Of a DNA stretch of 32,594 nucleotides, positions 1,961 to 25,961 are shown piece after piece. Positions within the stretch are counted from its first letter, which is position 1. Each line of letters begins with the position of its first letter. The stretch comes from Myxococcales bacterium (lineage in GTDB: Bacteria > Myxococcota > Myxococcia > Myxococcales > JAJYLH01): positions 1 to 32,594 of the forward strand of contig JAJYLH010000013.1 of NCBI GenBank assembly GCA_021787845.1, given 5' to 3'. The translations under genes and the position numbers were made by a program. The notes below the pieces were generated by a model. The model saw only the letters and a list, made by a program, of their open reading frames with translations, was not told the origin of the DNA and made no database searches.

Positions 1961-2163
1961 GGCGCAAGCTTGAAGGGGTATCTCCTTCGTTCAGGTTCGG
2001 CGCGGGCTCTTCTCCCGTGGCGCGGGCGTCCTCGCCCGTGGCCGCTTGGAGATCTCATGCCGGCGGTTCGGCGAGGCTTCCACGGGCGAGGACGCCCGTG
2101 CCACAGGAAAATGGGAGCCGGGCACCAACCTGAATGAAGCCGATACCCCCTCAAGCTTGCGCC
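1961..2163. mobile_element. Foldback element A1 in a palindromic target
   Basis: The interval 1973-2151 (179 bp) is a near-complete inverted repeat with arms of about 70 bp and a central loop near 2042-2079. The innermost arm (GGGCGTCCTCGCCCGTGG at the left, its complement from 2080) is almost perfect. The outer ends are AAGGGGTATC and, complemented, AGGGGGTATC. On both sides lies CAAGCTTG (1965-1972 and 2152-2159), flanked by GGCG on the left and CGCC on the right. Removing the element would restore a 16-bp palindrome, which fits insertion with an 8-bp target duplication. The duplication cannot be told from a longer inverted end because it is itself palindromic. There is no coding capacity, so it is a MITE-like, non-autonomous element. 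Confidence 0.7.
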
Positions 2164-4835: not shown

Positions 4836-4918
4836 CGCCTCTCGTTCGACCGCGAATCGCGACCGGCGATCGGCGGTGAAGGGCTATCGCCTTCGTTCGG
4901 TTCAACCCGGGTTCTTGT

Positions 4919-5220
4919 GGCGCTGCGCTGTTTCGTGTGGGTTTCAAGCCAAAGGAGCCGGGCACGGCACCGCCCGGATACGGCGCGGCCACCGGTTCCG
5001 ACATCGTACGTCCTCACCGCGAACGCTGTGCCTGCACCCGGACACTCACGTGTCCGGCTCCATCTCTGGCGCAGTGAGCTGACGTCACCCCGGCGGCGGA
5101 CAAGCCCCAGGACAAGCCCCCGCCCTACCGTCCTCACCGCGAACGCTGTGCCTGCACCCGGACACTCACGTGTCCGGCTCCAAGTCCGGTCGCGCAACCC
5201 ACACGAAGCAGCGCAGAGCC
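4919..5220. mobile_element. Element B: 302-bp MITE-like insertion with 8-bp target duplication
   Basis: Its ends are inverted repeats of about 25 bp, GGCGCTGCGCTG.TTCGTG.. at 4919 and the complement of 5196-5220 (GGCTCTGCGCTG.TTCGTG..), matching at 23 of 25 positions. It is flanked directly by GTTCTTGT at 4911-4918 and 5221-5228, an 8-bp target duplication inside element A2. No transposase is encoded. The 8-bp duplication and GGCTCT-type end are reminiscent of the ISL3 family, which is an inference. Inside are two exact 54-bp direct repeats. Confidence 0.8.
5009..5182. repeat. Two exact 54-bp direct repeats with a family C hairpin
   Basis: Positions 5009-5062 and 5129-5182 are identical and exactly 120 bp apart. 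Each contains CCGGACAC-TCAC-GTGTCCGG (for example 5038-5057), a perfect 8-bp stem with a 4-nt loop. The 29-bp core recurs exactly at 25563-25591 inside a coding region and in part, inverted, at 28193-28208. Confidence 0.88.
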
Positions 5221-5422
5221 GTTCTTGTCCCGTGGCGCGGGCGTCCTCGCCCGTGGATGCATGGGTATCCGCGATGCCTGCGGGTTCGGCAGGGCTTTCA
5301 CGGGGGGGGACGCCCGTGCCACAAGAGAATGGGAGCCGGGCCCGCGCCAAGTGAAGGCGATACCCCCGGCGATGGCTCGTCGAAGCACGACCGGTCAGCG
5401 CGGCCGGGCGCCGATCGGGCGC

Positions 5423-5527: not shown

Positions 5528-8500
5528 ATGCGACACCATCTCACGCTCGCCGGCAGCATCGCGCTGAGCCTGCTCGTCGCCTGCTCGAACCAGGGAACGC
5601 CCACCAACACCCAGAACAACACCCACGCGGTCCCCGGACCGCTGATCGAGGAAGTGCAGCCGCCGCAGGGACCGGCCGCCGGCGGGAGCGTCATCCTCCT
5701 GCGCGGCGAGCGCTTCGCGCCCGGCGCGACCGTCCAGTTCGACAAGAAGGCGTCGCCCGAGGTCGTGGTCGCCGACCCCGGCACCCTCACCGCCGTCACC
5801 CCGGCCGGCAAGGCGGGAGCGGTCTCGGTCATCGTCACGAACCCCGACGGACAGTTGACCGAGCTGGCGGACGGCTTCACCTACGCGAGCGCGACCGCCA
5901 CCTCGCTCACGCTGACCCAGGCGGTCCCGGCGCAGGGCCCGAGCACCGGCGGCACCCTGGTCGAGCTGCACGGCACCGGCTTCGCCAGCGGCGCGCTCGC
6001 GTTCTTCGGCGGCCGACCCGCGTCCAGCGTGGTCGTCGTCTCGCCGACGCTCCTGACCTGCGTCATCCCCGCCGGCCTCCCGGGACCGGTGGAGCTCGCC
6101 GTCACCGGTCCCGACGGGTTCTCGGCCCGGCTGCACAACGGCTTCACCTACTTCGACCCGTCGAAGGCCACCCACCCGGCGCCCAAGCTCTCCGCCATCG
6201 CTCCTGTCGAGGGCACCGTCGCCGGCGGAGACGCGGCGAGCCTCACCGGCAGCGGCTTCATCCCGGGCATGCGGGCGTACCTGGGCGGCATTCCGGTGGG
6301 CGCTCTCGACTTCGGGGTCAACGCGGCGACCTTCACCACCCCGCCGGGCAAGCCCGGCAACGTCGACGTCGCGGTGACCAACCCCGACGGGCAGGGCAGC
6401 ATCCTCGAGGCGGCGTTCGACTACTACGCCCCGACAGCGCTCCTGGCCTCCATCAGCCCCACCTCGGGGCCGGTCGCCGGCGGGACCCAGGTCACCGTCG
6501 TCGGGCGCAACTTCACCTCCGACGCCCTGCTGACGCTGGGCGGGAGCGCGGTGACCGCGTTGACCCTGGTCGACCCGCAGACGCTGAGCGGGACCACCCC
6601 CAAGGGGGCGAGCTACGGCTACGTCGATTTGCAGGTGGTGGAGCCGGGCGGCCTTATCGACACGCTCCACAACGCGTTCTACTACACGGACGCCGATCAC
6701 CCGGCTCCGGGGAGCAGCACCGGTCCCGCCCCGGTCTCGATCTCCCGCATCAGCCCACCGACCGGACCGAACACCGGCGGCTTCACCGCGAGCCTGCTCG
6801 GCGGCGGCTTCCAGACCGGCGCCACCGTCACCTTCGGGTCGGCGAGCGCGTCGAACGTCCAGGTTCTGGGCCCGACCTCGATTCGGGTGACCGTCCCGCC
6901 CGGGACCGAGGGGCCGGCGACGGTGACCGTCACCAACCCCGACCACGGGACCGCGAGCCTCGACGGCATCTTCTCCTACTACGACTCGACCAGCCAGACG
7001 CCGGGGCCGAGCCTGAGCGGGGTGCTCCCGGCGATGGGCCCGACCACCGGCGGCACGCCCGTGATGCTGACGGGAGACGGGTTCGCTGACGCCGCCCAGG
7101 TGCGCTTCGGCACCACGGCGAGCCCGAAGGTGCAGTGGATCTCCGCGACCGAGCTGCTGGCGACCGCGCCTCCGGCGACCCTTCCGGGAGCGGTGCCGGT
7201 CATCGTCAGCAACCCCGACGGCAAGAGCGATTCGCTGCTCGAGGGCTTCTCCTACTACACGAAGACCGACGGCGAGACCGCGCCCAACGTCACCTCGGTC
7301 ACGCCCCAGACCGGCCTCGTCAACGAGCCGGCGGTGGTGACCGTCGTGGGCGAGAACTTCCAGGAGGGGGCGATGGTCTACGCGGGAATCGCGCCGGCCT
7401 CGTCGATCACCGTGACGAGCCCGACCACCCTGACCGCGACCCTCCCTGGGCAGCCCGCGGGGAAGGTGGACCTGACCGTGGTCAACCCGGACGGGCTCTT
7501 CGCGACGCTCTCGCAGGGCTTCACCTACCAGGCGGCGCCGGCGCCCACGGTGGACTCGGTTTCGCCGTCGAGCGGTCCGGCGGGCGCGACGACCCAGGTC
7601 ACGTTGAGCGGCCAGCACTTCGCGACGGGCGCCACGGTGACGGCGGGCACCAAGCCGGCGACGGGCGTCGAGGTCACCAACGCGACGACGATCACCGCGA
7701 CGCTCCCGGCAGAGCCCGCGGGGAAGGTGGACCTCGTCGTGACGAACCCGGACGGGCAGGCGGGCACGCTCGCCAACGGCTTCGAGTACGTCACCCCACC
7801 TCCGCAGATTTCCTCGATTCGTCCGACCACGGGACCGCTCGCGGGTGGCGTCACCGTTCTCGTCCTCGGGCAGGGCTTCAGCCCGGGAGCGACGGTGTCG
7901 TTCGGCCGCATCGCCTCGCCCAGCGTCACCTTCGTCGCCCCGACCGCGCTGAAGGTGCTGGCGCCCGCCGACGTGGCGGAGACGGTGGACCTGACGGTGA
8001 CGAACCCCGACGGGCAGGCGGCGACCCTGCCGCAGGCGTTCACCTACGACCCGAACTGGGTGGCGCTGCCGACGCCGAGCGTGACCGAGGTGGAGCCCGC
8101 GCACGGTCCGACGACGGGCGGCAGCGCGGTCCTGATCAAGGGCGGCGGCTTCTCGGACGGGATGAGCGTCTTCTTCGCGGACCAGCCGGCGACCGGCGTC
8201 ATCGAGATCGACGCGGCGACGCTCTACGCGGTCACCCCGCCCAACGCCGCCGGCCCCGCGCACGTGACGGTGATCGGCCAGGACGGCCAGACCGCGGTGC
8301 TCGCGGGCGCCTTCACCTACACCGACCCGGCGACGCTGGGGCCGAAGCCGACCCTCACCGGGACCTCCCCGACCACCGGCGAGCAGTCGGCGCCCGTGCA
8401 GGTGCTGCTCACCGGGAGCGGTTTCGCCTCCGGCGCGTACGTCTTCTTCGGCGGCGTGCTGGCGAACAACCCCTTGCGGCTGTCGGACAACATCTACCAG

Positions 8501-11500
8501 GCGGACGCGCTCCCGCACGACCCGGGCGCGGTCGACGTCGCCATCACCAACCCCGACGGGCAGTCGGCGATTCTCAAGGGCGGCTTCACCTACGTGGCGG
8601 CGCCGACCCTCGCGAGCCTGACCCCCTCGAGCGGACCGACCGCGGGTGGCACCAAGATCCTCGTCACCGGCACCGCTTTCCAGAGCGGCGCCCAGGTCTC
8701 CATCGGCGGCGTGGCGGCGACCCAGGTCAACGTGCGTTCGCCGACCCTGCTCGACTGCTTCACCCCGGCGGGCGCGGCGGGCGCCGCCGACGTGGTGGTG
8801 ACGAATCCCGACGGGCAGGCGTTCACCCTCCCGCAGGGCTTCACCTTCGTGCCGCCGCCGGCACTCTCGGACAAAGCGCTCCTGCCGGCCAGCGGCCCGA
8901 CGACGGGCGGGACGATCGCGATGCTCAGCGGCCAGGACTTCCTCGCCGGGATGACCGCCACCCTCGGGGGCAAGGGCGCTACCGTCCAGGTGCTCGACCC
9001 GAAGACCGCGGTGATTGAGATCCCCGCGGCGAGCGTGGGGTACGCGGACCTGACGGTGACCAATCCCGACGGGCAGACGGCGACCGCGTCGCGGGCGTTC
9101 CAGTACAAGGACCCGGCCACCCTCGGGGCCCCGCCGACGGTGACCCAGGTGACGCCGGGCCAGGGTCCGGTCGAGGGCAAGACGCTGCTCGCGGTCAGCG
9201 GCGGCGGCTTCGAGGACGGCGCCCTCGTCTTCTTCGGGATGGTCCCGGCGACCCAGGTGCTGAAGGTGGCGCCCGACACTCTGACCGGGATGACCCCGGC
9301 GGGCGAGCCGGGCAAGGTCCAGGTGGCGGTGACGAACCCCGACGGGCAGACCGCGGTTCTCGCCGACGCCTTCGAATACGTGGCCGACTCGCAGCTTTCG
9401 GCGCCGCCGACCTTGAGCGATCTCAACCCCCAGCAGGCCTCGGTCTTCGGAGACACGGTGATCGCGGTGACCGGCGGGAACCTGACCGACGGCGCCACCT
9501 TCTTCTTCGGCGGGCGACCCTCGGCGAGCGCGACCGTCAGCGGACCGGGCGACGCGTCGGTGACCGCGCCCGCCGCGCCGGCCGGCCCCGCCTCGGTGGC
9601 GGTGACCAACCCCGACGGCCAGACCGCGCTCTACAAAGGCACGTTCACCTACATCGTGCCTCCTCCGGTACCGCTCTCGACCAGCCCGTCGGGCGGGACC
9701 ACCCTCGGGGGGACCCTCCTGACGCTGACCGGCAAGAACTTCCAGACGGGCGCGGTGGTGCAGGTCGGCGGCGGGAGCTGCACCGGGCTGACGGTGGTGG
9801 ATTCGACGCAGATCACCTGCACGACGCCGCCGGGGGCGGACGGGCCGGTGGCGGTCGAGGTGACGAACCCGGACGGGCAGAAGGGAACCTTGGGCAACGG
9901 CTTCACCTACGTCTCGCCGCCGGTGCCCAGCGACGTCTCGCCGACCAGCGGGCCCCAGGCGGGAGGGACCGCGCTCTCGATCACCGGCACCTACTTCGCC
10001 GACGGCGCGACCGTGAAGATCGGCGCGAACGATTGCCTGAACATCCACCGGGTGTCCGCGGTGCTCATCACCTGCACGACGCCGGCGGGCAGCGCGGGGC
10101 CCGCCGCCATCGTGGTGGCGAACCCGGACGGGCAGGAAGGGACGCTCGCGGCCGGGTTCACCTACCTGCCGCCGATTCCGCCGCCCGCCTTGACCAAGGT
10201 GGTTCCGTCGAGCGGCTCCATCCGCGGCGGCAGCGGGGTGACGTTGATCGGCAACGCCTTCCAGGTCGGGGCGACGGTCAAGTTCGGCACCATCGCCGCG
10301 AGCGCGGTCAGCGTCATCAGCGGCACCAGCCTGACCTGCATCACCCCGGCGGAGGACGCGGGGACGGTCGACGTCACCGTGACGAACCCCGACGGGCAGA
10401 CCGCGAGCCTGCCGCAGGCCTACACCTTCAAGCCGGACATCGCGCTGCCGCCGCTCGCGGTCACCGCCATCACCCCGAACACCGGCGCGCTCGTCGGCGG
10501 GACCGCGCTGACCATCACCGGCAACGGCTTCGAGGCGGGGCTCGCGGTGACGGTGGGCGCGAACCTCTGCACGAGCCTGTCGCGCCTGGGGCCGACGGCG
10601 CTCGTGTGCACGACGCCGCCGGCGAGCTCCTCGGGAGCGGTGGACGTCACCGTGACCGACCCCGACGGGCAGCAGGTCGTGGTGACCAAGGGCTTCACCT
10701 ACGACCAGGGCGGCCGGTTCGTGGTCGCCGGGCACAATCTGATGATGGAAGCGACCGGCAGCAAACGCGCCGGCGTCCTGCTCGACGTCGACCGCAACAA
10801 CACGATGGACTTCATCGAGGCCAACTGGAACGGCAACAACCAAGCCTACTTGTGGGAGCAGATCAACGACGGGACGGGCAAGTTCTCTTTGGTTCCGGGC
10901 AACCTGCCGTCGGAGCCCGCCAACGGCCGCTATCCCCAGATGGATTCTCTCTACGGTGGCTTGCGCACCGGCAGCGTCTGCACCGGCAGCGCCTGCGAGG
11001 CCTGCGCGCCGGGCGCGTGTACCCCCCAGCCGCTCGACCTGAACCAGGACGGCGCGCCGGACTTCCTCTACGTGACGCCGTGGAGCGTCGTCGTCTACCT
11101 GAACGATGGCGCCGGCAAGTTCACCCGCAGCGAGTACCCGATCTGCATCGACCAATGGGGTAACATCCGTGATAGCACGAGCCAGGGGAACGCGGCGGTC
11201 GCGGACTTCAACGGAGACGGGTTCCCGGACGTGGTGATTCCGCGGTGGGGCAGCGCGCAGAACTGCTGGGACAGCGTCACCAAGACCTATTCCGGCGGCG
11301 CGAACGAGATGCTGATGCTCAACGACGGCAAGGGCGGGTTCATCTCGAAGCCGCTGGCGATTCCGGTGGTGGCCGACAACACGACGACGGTCCGGGCCGG
11401 CGACTTCGACGGCGACGGCGACATGGACTTCATCACCGTGAACGAGAACAACCAGCAGAACCGGCTCTACTACAACGACAGCAGCGTGGACTGCACGCCG

Positions 11501-13192
11501 ACCGCGAGCTGCGCGAACCGCTTCGTCGACGTGACCACCTCCGACTTCCCGGTCTCGGCGGGCGCCGGCCGGGACGCGGCCGTGGGCGACATCAACGGCG
11601 ATGGCAAGCTCGACATCATCATCGGGTTCAACGGACAGCGCAACAAGGTCTATGTGAACACCGGCGGCAAGTTCACCGACGTCACCCTGACGAACCTCCT
11701 GCCCAACGACGTCGACGCGACCTGGGCCACCTGGCTCGTCGATTACGACAACGACGGAGACCTGGACCTGATCACTCGGCGGTCGCCGACCACCGACGAC
11801 CCGCAGCCCATTCGCATCTACAACAACGACGGCACCGGGCACTTCTCGAACGACGTCGGCCAGTCCGCCTTGCCGCCGGTCATCGGCGAGGGAACCTTGG
11901 ACGATCTGGTCCTCGGCGACGTCAACCGCGACGGCTACCCGGACATGATCTGGATCCAGGAGAACCACCAGAACCGGATTCTCCTCAACGACACCAAGGG
12001 GCATTTCGTCCGTCAGACCATCACCGACCTGCCCGAGCAGAACGTCGCTCTCCAATCCGCGGTGGCGGTGGACGTCGACGGCGATGGCGACAAGGATCTC
12101 GTGACCTGCGGGACCGGTCCGATGCAGCCGCAGCTCTGGCTGAACGACGGCGCGGGCAACTTCGTCGACTACACGGCGCAACGGATGCCGCAGGTGAAGT
12201 TCAACTGTTACGACGTGGTGGCCGCGGACGTGAACGGTGACGGCGCGCCGGACCTCTTGTTCGCCGTCGCCACCGACCCGGGGAAGACCCCGAGCGGCGC
12301 CTCCGGCGCGAGCGTGTACTTGTTCATGAACGACGGGAACGGCACGTTCACCGACGCGACCTTCCCGCGGCTTCCGACCGACCCCACCAACCGTAACGTG
12401 CATCCTCACGTCATTGCGCCCATCGACTACGACGGGGACGGAGACTTGGACCTGTTGGTCGGTTTCGATGCTTGCGGCTCGTCCAACGGCCAGGTGCGCC
12501 TGTGGCAGAACATCGGGAAGAACACAGGCTATTTCACGGACGTGACGCCGACGGCGAACATCGGCGGGTTCCGCGGCGGAGCCTGCTGCCAGTGGTGGCA
12601 GTCGGACCCGATTTCGGACATCAAGGTCGGCGACTTGGACGGCGACGGGAAACCCGACTTTTTCGTGACTCGCCAGGATTCTTGCTGGGGCTACGATCCG
12701 ACCAACTTCACGCCGAACCAGATCTTCCTCAACAACGGCGACGGCAGCTTCAGCAACGTCACCAGCACCAAGTACGCTTATCCGACCTACGGAACCCACG
12801 CGGCGCTCGCGGACTTCGACGGCGACGGAACCCTCGACGTGTACGTGGTCAACGGTACCGACGACCGGCTCTACCTCAACTCGGGCGGCGCCCTGCTCTC
12901 CGACGTGACTCCGAAGAACCTGCCGCGCAGCGGGAACTCGGTGGGGGTCGTGGTCACCGACGTCGACGGCAACGGCGCGCCCGACCTGGTTCTCGCCAAG
13001 TCCGGCGGCAACCAGCCGCAGTTGCTGCTCAACATCGGCAACGGCGTGTTCTCGGACTACACCAGCACCAAGATGCCGTGGGAGAACGACCAGACCGACA
13101 ACATCGCCGCGGGCGACTTCAACGGAGATGGATTCGACGATCTGTTGATCCTCAACAGCGGGCAGAGCCGCATCTTCTTGCGACAGCCCTGA
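5528..13192 (+). CDS. Giant lipoprotein with 19 IPT/TIG repeats and FG-GAP/VCBS propeller repeats, 2554 aa
   Basis: GGAGG sits just before the ATG. The signal ends in LLVAC, so Cys19 is the lipidated residue. Residues of about 38-1727 form 19 consecutive TIG (Ig-like, plexin/transcription-factor type) domains of 80-100 residues. Each runs from P..GP..GG through TNPDGQ to GFTY-type ends. Residues 1740-2554 hold about 14 calcium-loop repeats of the FG-GAP/VCBS form (DFNGDGFPDVVIP, DINGDGKLDIIIG, DYDGDGDLDLLVG), expected to fold into beta-propellers. The protein is probably a long rod on the cell surface tipped by a calcium-dependent binding propeller, suited to adhesion or prey and matrix contact. 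No protease or transpeptidase motif is visible. It is monocistronic and convergent with the Ig-repeat lipoprotein gene. Confidence 0.93.
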   Translation: MRHHLTLAGSIALSLLVACSNQGTPTNTQNNTHAVPGPLIEEVQPPQGPAAGGSVILLRGERFAPGATVQFDKKASPEVVVADPGTLTAVTPAGKAGAVSVIVTNPDGQLTELADGFTYASATATSLTLTQAVPAQGPSTGGTLVELHGTGFASGALAFFGGRPASSVVVVSPTLLTCVIPAGLPGPVELAVTGPDGFSARLHNGFTYFDPSKATHPAPKLSAIAPVEGTVAGGDAASLTGSGFIPGMRAYLGGIPVGALDFGVNAATFTTPPGKPGNVDVAVTNPDGQGSILEAAFDYYAPTALLASISPTSGPVAGGTQVTVVGRNFTSDALLTLGGSAVTALTLVDPQTLSGTTPKGASYGYVDLQVVEPGGLIDTLHNAFYYTDADHPAPGSSTGPAPVSISRISPPTGPNTGGFTASLLGGGFQTGATVTFGSASASNVQVLGPTSIRVTVPPGTEGPATVTVTNPDHGTASLDGIFSYYDSTSQTPGPSLSGVLPAMGPTTGGTPVMLTGDGFADAAQVRFGTTASPKVQWISATELLATAPPATLPGAVPVIVSNPDGKSDSLLEGFSYYTKTDGETAPNVTSVTPQTGLVNEPAVVTVVGENFQEGAMVYAGIAPASSITVTSPTTLTATLPGQPAGKVDLTVVNPDGLFATLSQGFTYQAAPAPTVDSVSPSSGPAGATTQVTLSGQHFATGATVTAGTKPATGVEVTNATTITATLPAEPAGKVDLVVTNPDGQAGTLANGFEYVTPPPQISSIRPTTGPLAGGVTVLVLGQGFSPGATVSFGRIASPSVTFVAPTALKVLAPADVAETVDLTVTNPDGQAATLPQAFTYDPNWVALPTPSVTEVEPAHGPTTGGSAVLIKGGGFSDGMSVFFADQPATGVIEIDAATLYAVTPPNAAGPAHVTVIGQDGQTAVLAGAFTYTDPATLGPKPTLTGTSPTTGEQSAPVQVLLTGSGFASGAYVFFGGVLANNPLRLSDNIYQADALPHDPGAVDVAITNPDGQSAILKGGFTYVAAPTLASLTPSSGPTAGGTKILVTGTAFQSGAQVSIGGVAATQVNVRSPTLLDCFTPAGAAGAADVVVTNPDGQAFTLPQGFTFVPPPALSDKALLPASGPTTGGTIAMLSGQDFLAGMTATLGGKGATVQVLDPKTAVIEIPAASVGYADLTVTNPDGQTATASRAFQYKDPATLGAPPTVTQVTPGQGPVEGKTLLAVSGGGFEDGALVFFGMVPATQVLKVAPDTLTGMTPAGEPGKVQVAVTNPDGQTAVLADAFEYVADSQLSAPPTLSDLNPQQASVFGDTVIAVTGGNLTDGATFFFGGRPSASATVSGPGDASVTAPAAPAGPASVAVTNPDGQTALYKGTFTYIVPPPVPLSTSPSGGTTLGGTLLTLTGKNFQTGAVVQVGGGSCTGLTVVDSTQITCTTPPGADGPVAVEVTNPDGQKGTLGNGFTYVSPPVPSDVSPTSGPQAGGTALSITGTYFADGATVKIGANDCLNIHRVSAVLITCTTPAGSAGPAAIVVANPDGQEGTLAAGFTYLPPIPPPALTKVVPSSGSIRGGSGVTLIGNAFQVGATVKFGTIAASAVSVISGTSLTCITPAEDAGTVDVTVTNPDGQTASLPQAYTFKPDIALPPLAVTAITPNTGALVGGTALTITGNGFEAGLAVTVGANLCTSLSRLGPTALVCTTPPASSSGAVDVTVTDPDGQQVVVTKGFTYDQGGRFVVAGHNLMMEATGSKRAGVLLDVDRNNTMDFIEANWNGNNQAYLWEQINDGTGKFSLVPGNLPSEPANGRYPQMDSLYGGLRTGSVCTGSACEACAPGACTPQPLDLNQDGAPDFLYVTPWSVVVYLNDGAGKFTRSEYPICIDQWGNIRDSTSQGNAAVADFNGDGFPDVVIPRWGSAQNCWDSVTKTYSGGANEMLMLNDGKGGFISKPLAIPVVADNTTTVRAGDFDGDGDMDFITVNENNQQNRLYYNDSSVDCTPTASCANRFVDVTTSDFPVSAGAGRDAAVGDINGDGKLDIIIGFNGQRNKVYVNTGGKFTDVTLTNLLPNDVDATWATWLVDYDNDGDLDLITRRSPTTDDPQPIRIYNNDGTGHFSNDVGQSALPPVIGEGTLDDLVLGDVNRDGYPDMIWIQENHQNRILLNDTKGHFVRQTITDLPEQNVALQSAVAVDVDGDGDKDLVTCGTGPMQPQLWLNDGAGNFVDYTAQRMPQVKFNCYDVVAADVNGDGAPDLLFAVATDPGKTPSGASGASVYLFMNDGNGTFTDATFPRLPTDPTNRNVHPHVIAPIDYDGDGDLDLLVGFDACGSSNGQVRLWQNIGKNTGYFTDVTPTANIGGFRGGACCQWWQSDPISDIKVGDLDGDGKPDFFVTRQDSCWGYDPTNFTPNQIFLNNGDGSFSNVTSTKYAYPTYGTHAALADFDGDGTLDVYVVNGTDDRLYLNSGGALLSDVTPKNLPRSGNSVGVVVTDVDGNGAPDLVLAKSGGNQPQLLLNIGNGVFSDYTSTKMPWENDQTDNIAAGDFNGDGFDDLLILNSGQSRIFLRQP

Positions 13193-24692: not shown

Positions 24693-25961
24693 ATGTTCGC
24701 ATCCCTGCTCCTCGCCGCGTCGGTCGGACTGAAGGTCGTCGTCCCCTCCTTCCAGACGAGCGACGTCCCCGACTTCGTCGGGCATCGGATGAGCCAGCTC
24801 GTCGCCAAACGCATCAACGCCCTCGGCTGCGCGACCGCCCTGAGCATCGACGACGTGCCCGCCACGATGCGCGAGAACCTCGACGCCTGCCACGGCCAAG
24901 CCTCGTGCGTCGCCAGCCTCGCCGAGGTGCTGAGCGCGAGCCACGTCCTCGTCGGCTACGTCTGGAGCGTCGGGATTCACTACTCGGTGCGGATGCTCGT
25001 CGTCGACGTGGCCAACCGCAGGCTCGTGAAGAGCTACGTCGACAAGGTGCCGGCGAACATCGGCAACCTGCCGGCGGTGGTGGCGCGCGAGGGGCAGTCG
25101 ATCTGCGACTCGCTCTACTCGCACGATGATCTGGCGCTGGGCGCGCTCCCGGCGCCGATTGCCAAGGGCTTCGACAACCTCCCGCCGGCGCCCGCGCCGC
25201 CGGCAGCCCCGGGGACCGTCACGACCAGCGCGCCCGCGCCGGTGGCGACACGGCCTCAACCTCCGGCAGCCTCTTCTCCAGCCGTGCCCGCTCCTCCCTC
25301 GACGGCGCTCGGGATGAGCGGCGGTGGAGCGCCCGCGATGAGCCGGTCGGTCACGACGCGAGAGGGCCCCGGGATTCCGAAGCCGTTGCCACCCATCGTG
25401 TCGAGCGAGCTTCCTCCCATTTCCGCTCCTCCCTCGACCGTGCTCAGGATGAGCGCCAACGCGAGCGGGCACGCGCCCGCCGGGCCCGAGAGCAACCCAG
25501 CACGGCCATCGTCAGGTCCTCCGACCACAACCCCCACGGCAACTGCATCGACCGCTCTGCCAGCACCCGGACACTCACGTGTCCGGCTCCACCTAGGAGA
25601 GACATCGACCGTCCTGCCTACACCCGGACCATCAGGTGTCCGGCGCCAGTTGGCAGGGACATCGGGTGCAGAGAGCTGGCTCCATCCTCCGGTTTCCCCT
25701 CGGGTTCGGATGTGGACCTGGGTTGGCCTCGGCACGACCGGCGCCGCGCTGATCCTCGGCGGCAGCTTCGGCCTGAGCACCTTGTCGGCTCTGTCGACCC
25801 GCTCCTCCGCGACCAGCCAGACCGACTTCTACGCCGCGCAATCGTCTCTCGGCACGAGAGCCACGGTCGCCAACGTCGCCTATGGCGTCACCGCCGCCGC
25901 GCTCGCCGCCTCGGCCGTGCTCTGGTTCGAGGGCGACCGCCTCTTCCCGGCCGGTCCGTAG
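24693..25961 (+). CDS. TolB-N-like envelope protein with two C-terminal helices and a repeat-invaded linker, 422 aa
   Basis: CGGAGG precedes the ATG at 24693. The N-terminus is short and hydrophobic and lacks a basic head, so secretion is likely but the signal is weak. Residues of about 12-165 resemble the TolB N-terminal-like domain of myxobacterial proteins: a LKVVVPSF strand, CHGQASCVASLAEVLSASHV, then YSVRMLVVDVANRRLVKSY. Residues 170-345 are a low-complexity linker containing two copies each of DNA hairpin families C and D, all read in frame. The end has two membrane helices (WVGLGTTGAALILGGSFGL and VAYGVTAAALAASAVLWF) around a polar segment, the same plan as the PEGA protein. It is the middle gene of a tight operon. 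Role unknown, perhaps envelope assembly or sensing. Confidence 0.85.
   Translation: MFASLLLAASVGLKVVVPSFQTSDVPDFVGHRMSQLVAKRINALGCATALSIDDVPATMRENLDACHGQASCVASLAEVLSASHVLVGYVWSVGIHYSVRMLVVDVANRRLVKSYVDKVPANIGNLPAVVAREGQSICDSLYSHDDLALGALPAPIAKGFDNLPPAPAPPAAPGTVTTSAPAPVATRPQPPAASSPAVPAPPSTALGMSGGGAPAMSRSVTTREGPGIPKPLPPIVSSELPPISAPPSTVLRMSANASGHAPAGPESNPARPSSGPPTTTPTATASTALPAPGHSRVRLHLGETSTVLPTPGPSGVRRQLAGTSGAESWLHPPVSPRVRMWTWVGLGTTGAALILGGSFGLSTLSALSTRSSATSQTDFYAAQSSLGTRATVANVAYGVTAAALAASAVLWFEGDRLFPAGP
25288..25455. repeat. Two copies of hairpin repeat family D inside a gene
   Basis: CCGCTCCTCCCTCGAC...GCTC.GGATGAGCG occurs at 25288-25320 and 25423-25455, 135 bp apart, so both are read in the same frame (as PPSTALGMS and PPSTVLRMS). 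Each copy is an imperfect hairpin whose arms are CCGCTC and GAGCGG or GAGCG. Confidence 0.75.
25544..25657. repeat. Tandem 57-bp unit with family C hairpins inside a gene
   Basis: Two diverged units 57 bp apart begin near CATCGACCG. The first contains the exact 29-bp family C core (25563-25591; hairpin 25567-25586). The second has a mutated version (25620-25648). The spacing is a multiple of three, so both are translated in phase. Confidence 0.8.

Follow-up and report, generated by a model that had tools for sequence, protein, structure and literature searches.

A probable ISL3-type MITE nested in a foldback MITE of a Myxococcales genome

A short non-coding segment lies between two copies of one octamer at this locus, raising the question of what was inserted here, into what, and which enzyme would have moved it. 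The window, meaning the whole stretch of 32,594 bp that was analysed, comprises bases 1-32594 of contig C63 in a 6.24-Mb, 153-contig assembly. Direct reading of positions 4877-5374 revealed the octamer GTTCTTGT, identical at 8/8 bases, on both sides of a 302-bp element (A), whose 25-bp terminal inverted repeats, GGCGCTGCGCTGTTTCGTGTGGGTT and GGCTCTGCGCTGCTTCGTGTGGGTT, are alike at 23/25 positions; an earlier note on this DNA had described the octamers, the segment and its ends correctly to the base. When A and one GTTCTTGT were removed, a second copy of the foldback element B was restored, and the rejoined flanks aligned to the first copy with no gap at the junction, and likewise to seven other B copies. 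The earlier proposal of a nested MITE, with an uninterrupted copy in the same window for empty-site comparison, is thus confirmed. Concerning the boundaries of B, those given previously for the first copy were right, and this copy carries its own duplications; the second copy starts two bases after the claimed position 4877 (Table 1).

Table 1. Positions of element A, the two copies of B and their duplications in the window
Feature	Position	Strand	Remarks
B copy 1, left duplication CAAGCTTG	1965..1972	+	
B copy 1	1973..2151	+	Uninterrupted foldback MITE; 22/25 inverted ends; empty-site comparison
B copy 1, right duplication CAAGCTTG	2152..2159	+	Perfect
B copy 2, left duplication CGGCGGTG	4871..4878	+	7/8 match to 5367-5374
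B copy 2, left part, starting AAGGGCTATCGCCTTCGTTC	4879..4918	+	Includes the 8-bp site duplicated by A; from alignment to B copies
A, left target site duplication GTTCTTGT	4911..4918	+	Direct reading
A	4919..5220	+	302 bp; very probably an ISL3-type MITE; no transposase
A, left terminal inverted repeat GGCGCTGCGCTGTTTCGTGTGGGTT	4919..4943	+	
A, internal palindrome CCGGACAC-TCAC-GTGTCCGG	5038..5057	.	Within the first of two near-identical 55-57-bp direct units
A, internal palindrome, copy two	5158..5177	.	With its direct unit
A, right terminal inverted repeat GGCTCTGCGCTGCTTCGTGTGGGTT (read on -)	5196..5220	-	Fits the ISL3 end consensus GGCTCTNCNNNNNTTCGTGTGGGT
A, right target site duplication GTTCTTGT	5221..5228	+	Direct reading
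B copy 2, right part	5229..5366	+	From alignment of the rejoined flanks to B copies
B copy 2, right duplication CGGCGATG	5367..5374	+	

The open reading frames across A are only unrelated stop-free frames of GC-rich DNA, in agreement with the earlier statement that no transposase is encoded. The insertion had also been called recent, which exceeds the evidence: the duplication is intact, yet the B copy that hosts A shares only about 80% identity with its relatives, some other B copies reaching 97% identity with copy 1. The 8/8 duplication and the 23/25 ends of A argue against great age.

Palindromes are abundant in A, which has a fold z-score of -5.6. Its 55-57-bp direct units are also dispersed elsewhere in the genome on their own, and a 1.23-Mb genome sample contains its palindrome about 26 times. 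The copy in the window is a private variant, since its left interior had no match among those listed, while the right interior and the palindromic units were matched. Two more copies of the palindromic unit CCGGACAC-4-GTGTCCGG are present at 25546-25660 of the window, in frame in an open reading frame ending at 25961 (peptide STALPAPGHSRVRLHLGETSTVLPTPGPSGVRRQL), an arrangement reminiscent of coding sequences invaded by palindromic elements. The gene adjoining the nested element (5528-13192) encodes a protein of 2554 aa that contains about 19 TIG domains as well as FG-GAP repeats.

The A family was estimated at about 20-30 copies in the 6.24-Mb genome, a census based on pattern and BLAST searches of the genome plus the 1.23-Mb sample. 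The end pattern GGYTCTGCGCYGYTTCGYGTGNG, with at most one mismatch, occurred 36 times in the genome and 0 times in the backward control; therefore, chance is ruled out. The pattern gave 0 matches in 146 other genomes of the class, its exact form gave 0 in the GTDB species collection, from which the window's own genome is possibly absent, and the plasmid and phage collections searched contained no match to A. Twelve distinct copies had both ends, and in 10/12 of them the flanking 8-bp duplications had one mismatch or none. Six duplications were perfect: GTTCTTGT around the 302-bp copy of the window, CGCAATCT (299 bp), ATATCCTC (297 bp), GGAAAAGA (285 bp), CTTTTTCA (287 bp) and TGATTCGC (223 bp). 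Four had one mismatch, namely TCTTTTCC/TCTTTCCC (285 bp), AGTATTAA/AGTACTAA (284 bp), AAAGAACT/AAAGAACC (285 bp) and CCAGTCGC/CCAATCGC (289 bp), and two copies (L012 and L092) had two mismatches. The duplicated octamers were 61% AT, compared with about 31% AT in the genome sample. The earlier note had proposed this genome-wide search for the 25-bp ends, and the other copies found share the 8-bp duplications and, without exception, boundaries at GG...CC ends, the same as 4919 and 5220; neither deviating boundaries nor a lack of other loci with these ends was encountered. A is accordingly short, non-coding and multicopy, with inverted ends and with duplications at several independent loci, as is characteristic of a MITE.

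At no fewer than six A sites, the rejoined flanks could be aligned as empty sites to uninterrupted repeats elsewhere, with identities of 95% over 125 bp (L012), 89% (L014), 83% (L007), 80-83% (L001), 86% over 56 bp (L035) and 73% (L003). The hosts were B (L001), the C foldback (L003, L007 and L014) and another repeat (L012), and at L035 the duplicated octamer is the exact loop of a hairpin with a 9-bp stem. A further dispersed foldback family, CCCTCTCCCGCG...GCGGGGGAGGGG (about 2060-2190 of L085; flanks of L007 and L014), hosts several A insertions. These sites in B, the C foldback, the L012 repeat and a hairpin loop might mean that the A family prefers hairpins or foldback repeats over any AT-rich intergenic octamer, and the inverted repeats flanking A sites did outscore AT-matched controls (P = 0.015). 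However, repeats already matched 262/1500 AT-matched intergenic control positions (about 17%, on approximate gene calls) versus 4-5/11 A sites in the 1.23-Mb sample, L007 being among the five matching sites but at least partly matching its own palindrome; by our own arithmetic this gives about P = 0.03-0.1, which is unconvincing. Moreover, B, C and E are intergenic, where any MITE survives. As repeats are so common in the intergenic controls, a foldback preference is not claimed, and we regard it as unlikely. The wider picture of A as a hairpin-seeking ISL3-type MITE, for which foldbacks would serve as landing sites, so that MITEs become stacked and shape the intergenic repeats of the lineage, appears slightly less likely again.

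The host B is a MITE of about 180 bp with the ends AAGGGGTATCTCCTTCGTTCAGGTT and AGGGGGTATCGGCTTCGTTCAGGTT and a very strong foldback (z = -8.5). About 11 independent two-ended copies were counted, nine or ten of which are flanked by 8-bp duplications that differ at one position at most, where chance would give 0.5% per copy. An assignment of B to the ISL3 type was rejected, as its ends fail the ISL3 end matrix described below. A third MITE family, D, measures about 258 bp and is present in at least 40 copies that are 99-100% identical (for example C76:20638-20895 and C6:49654-49911, plus at least 38 other places, L166-L194), with ends CTGGGTATCCAGACATCTCAGG and duplications of about 9 bp, such as TCAACCTAC and TCAACCGGA; it looks like the most recent expansion in this genome. 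At C61:96890 and C126:103, a D copy is embedded in a terminal repeat of A. The end motif GGGTATC-8-TCAGGTT is common to B and D, and was found 73 times in this genome and once each in five of 141 relatives. This shared motif suggests that B and D may be moved by a single transposase. A hairpin core of 92 bases, related to B and located at sites including C153:164656, C141:47471 and C130:7394, has at least 16 copies with equal match scores and is apparently a separate family. The Rfam search of the B hairpin returned only sub-threshold matches to a plant microRNA family, which were taken as chance.

Concerning the enzyme that would have moved A, 142 genomes of the class were screened for ISL3 transposases (PF01610), and the elements surrounding intact matches were read. 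Their ends, for example AAAATTTG followed by GGCTCTCCTGGACTTCGTGTGGGTG (L108) and GGCTCTTCGGGAAATCGTGTGGGTT (L110), have the layout seen in the ends of A. A position matrix built from 11 such ends, taken from ISL3 elements of other class members, gave 21.4 for the right end of A, against a training range of 21-32 and a best score of 17.4 among 3 million simulated positions, and 14.9 for the left end, a score reached about once in a million; the two ends of A were the top scores, one per strand, of the whole window. The right ends of the commonest A subfamily score weakly on this matrix. The combined features of ISL3 ends were further condensed into the consensus GGCTCTNCNNNNNTTCGTGTGGGT, from which the left end of A departs at one base. 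Run blind on the GTDB species collection, this consensus gave at least 119 matches. Among the 82 ends read, across phyla, an ISL3 transposase lay inside 25/45 (counting only those whose interior spans 300 bp or more) and outside 1/77. The elements proven by target duplications had AT-rich 8-bp duplications, such as TTTATTAT and ATTTTATC. Compared with the right-end type of A, the commonest GTDB variants, GGCTCTTCGCT[A/G]TTTCGTGTGGGT, are one base off at position 7, with another difference at position 13; position 7 is G in A-type ends and mostly T, C or A in ISL3 elements.

The closest counterpart was a complete 1,384-bp ISL3 element (L296), whose left end, GGCTCTTCGCTGTTTCGTGTGGGTT, is identical to each A end at 23/25 positions. 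Its 426-aa protein matches Zn_ribbon_ISL3, HTH_Tnp_ISL3, DDE_Tnp_ISL3 and the NCBIfam model transpos_ISL3; the 8 bases on either side of this element differ, and its own duplication was not seen. The matrix, the GTDB consensus and this element agree in bearing out what had previously been a hint, drawn from the ends and the 8-bp duplication, and on sequence grounds the ends of A belong to the ISL3 type. Since A has ISL3-type ends and an 8-bp duplication but lacks a PF01610 transposase, it is classed as an ISL3-type MITE and not as an ISL3 insertion sequence.

IS6 ends start GG[CT]TCTG, and the IS6 duplication is 8 bp long. Mobilisation of A by an IS6-type transposase would thus fit its first seven bases, GGCTCTG, and the length of its duplication. 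However, bases 14-24 of the A end, TTCGTGTGGGT, agree with ISL3 ends and are a marker of ISL3 transposase genes in other genomes, whereas PF13610 (IS6, DDE_Tnp_IS240) gave only matches below the cut-off in this genome. With no IS6 transposase above threshold there, the assignment was rejected as very improbable. Least credible of all is that A is an immobile intergenic repeat spread by recombination and flanked by GTTCTTGT through coincidence: A is indeed palindrome-rich (the z-score given above) and carries units also found alone, but its 8-bp duplication lies exactly at 23/25 inverted ends, other loci show different 8-mers and the empty sites are gap-free at the A insertions, so that the copies with independent duplications already refute this reading.

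We consider it highly probable that A is a non-autonomous MITE, the 25-bp ends of which would be recognised by an ISL3-type (zinc-ribbon, HTH, DDE) transposase. Such an enzyme, provided in trans from an autonomous element, would have bound the ends of A and excised or copied it; A would then have been joined to an AT-rich 8-bp target in B, and filling in of the staggered cut would have left GTTCTTGT twice. The expected partner of A would be a complete ISL3 element whose ends read GGCTCTGCGC.

The earlier note held that a trans-acting enzyme must exist elsewhere. That it must have existed stands; that it still exists does not follow, as the assembly contained no intact ISL3 transposase with the ends of A, and the proposed search for a transposase gene flanked by these ends found none there. 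The sole ISL3 match in the genome is a decayed C-terminus fragment at C16:41165, which was rejected as the partner because its ends, judged by eye, are apparently GGCTCCTCAACAG, unlike those of A. The L296 transposase used as a query had no match in the genome, and a tblastn search with seven ISL3 proteins, covering the loci retrieved up to that point, yielded nothing in the A loci among them and only the C16:41165 fragment. Similarly, no autonomous copy was found beside A ends in the small contigs C123, C67 and C126, or at the ends of contigs C32, C151, C89, C100, C56, C25 and C46. Many repeat copies sit at contig ends in this assembly; therefore, an autonomous element present in several copies could have dropped out of it. 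Either the enzyme has been lost, leaving A inert, or the autonomous multicopy element is unassembled.

Short ISL3-ended elements of 230-505 bp with 8-bp duplications and no transposase were also observed in other phyla, in genomes of Nitrospirae, Moorella, Methylomirabilis and Methanoregula (L301, L327, L341, L367 and L368). Judging by such ends, ISL3-type MITEs look widespread.

Among known systems, ISL3 insertion sequences share with A ends of about 25 bp, GGCTCT...TTCGTGTGGGT, and AT-rich 8-bp target duplications; ISPpu12a of this family has 24/21 ends and 8-bp repeats (PMC4133298). Unlike A, they encode a transposase; A measures 302 bp, has a G at position 7 of its ends and lacks a cognate gene in the assembly. 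Prokaryotic MITEs have been reviewed (PMC10969869), and TIMEs have been described (PMC4133298). With prokaryotic MITEs, A has in common that it is short, non-coding, foldable and multicopy, with inverted ends and target duplications; it differs from them generally in its ISL3-type ends and in being inserted into a member of a second MITE family. One such MITE, Chunjie, reportedly occurs in Geobacter uraniireducens. The open-access literature searched, which was covered in part, contained no description of an ISL3 MITE, and the end motifs of the present MITE families are not common at family level to the related genomes searched. RPEs are palindromic units (cited in PMC10969869). The CCGGACAC-4-GTGTCCGG unit of A is RPE-like in being dispersed and also within a reading frame; unlike RPEs, it is here a passenger inside A.

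The insertion of A in B is a clean example of an ordinary kind of event. It offers a base-exact case of a MITE within a MITE, with several uninterrupted host copies for comparison, and illustrates that the ends of a MITE can reveal its transposase family although no matching transposase is present in the genome. This genome contains at least three MITE families as well as nested insertions, and would be useful for studying the accumulation of such elements.
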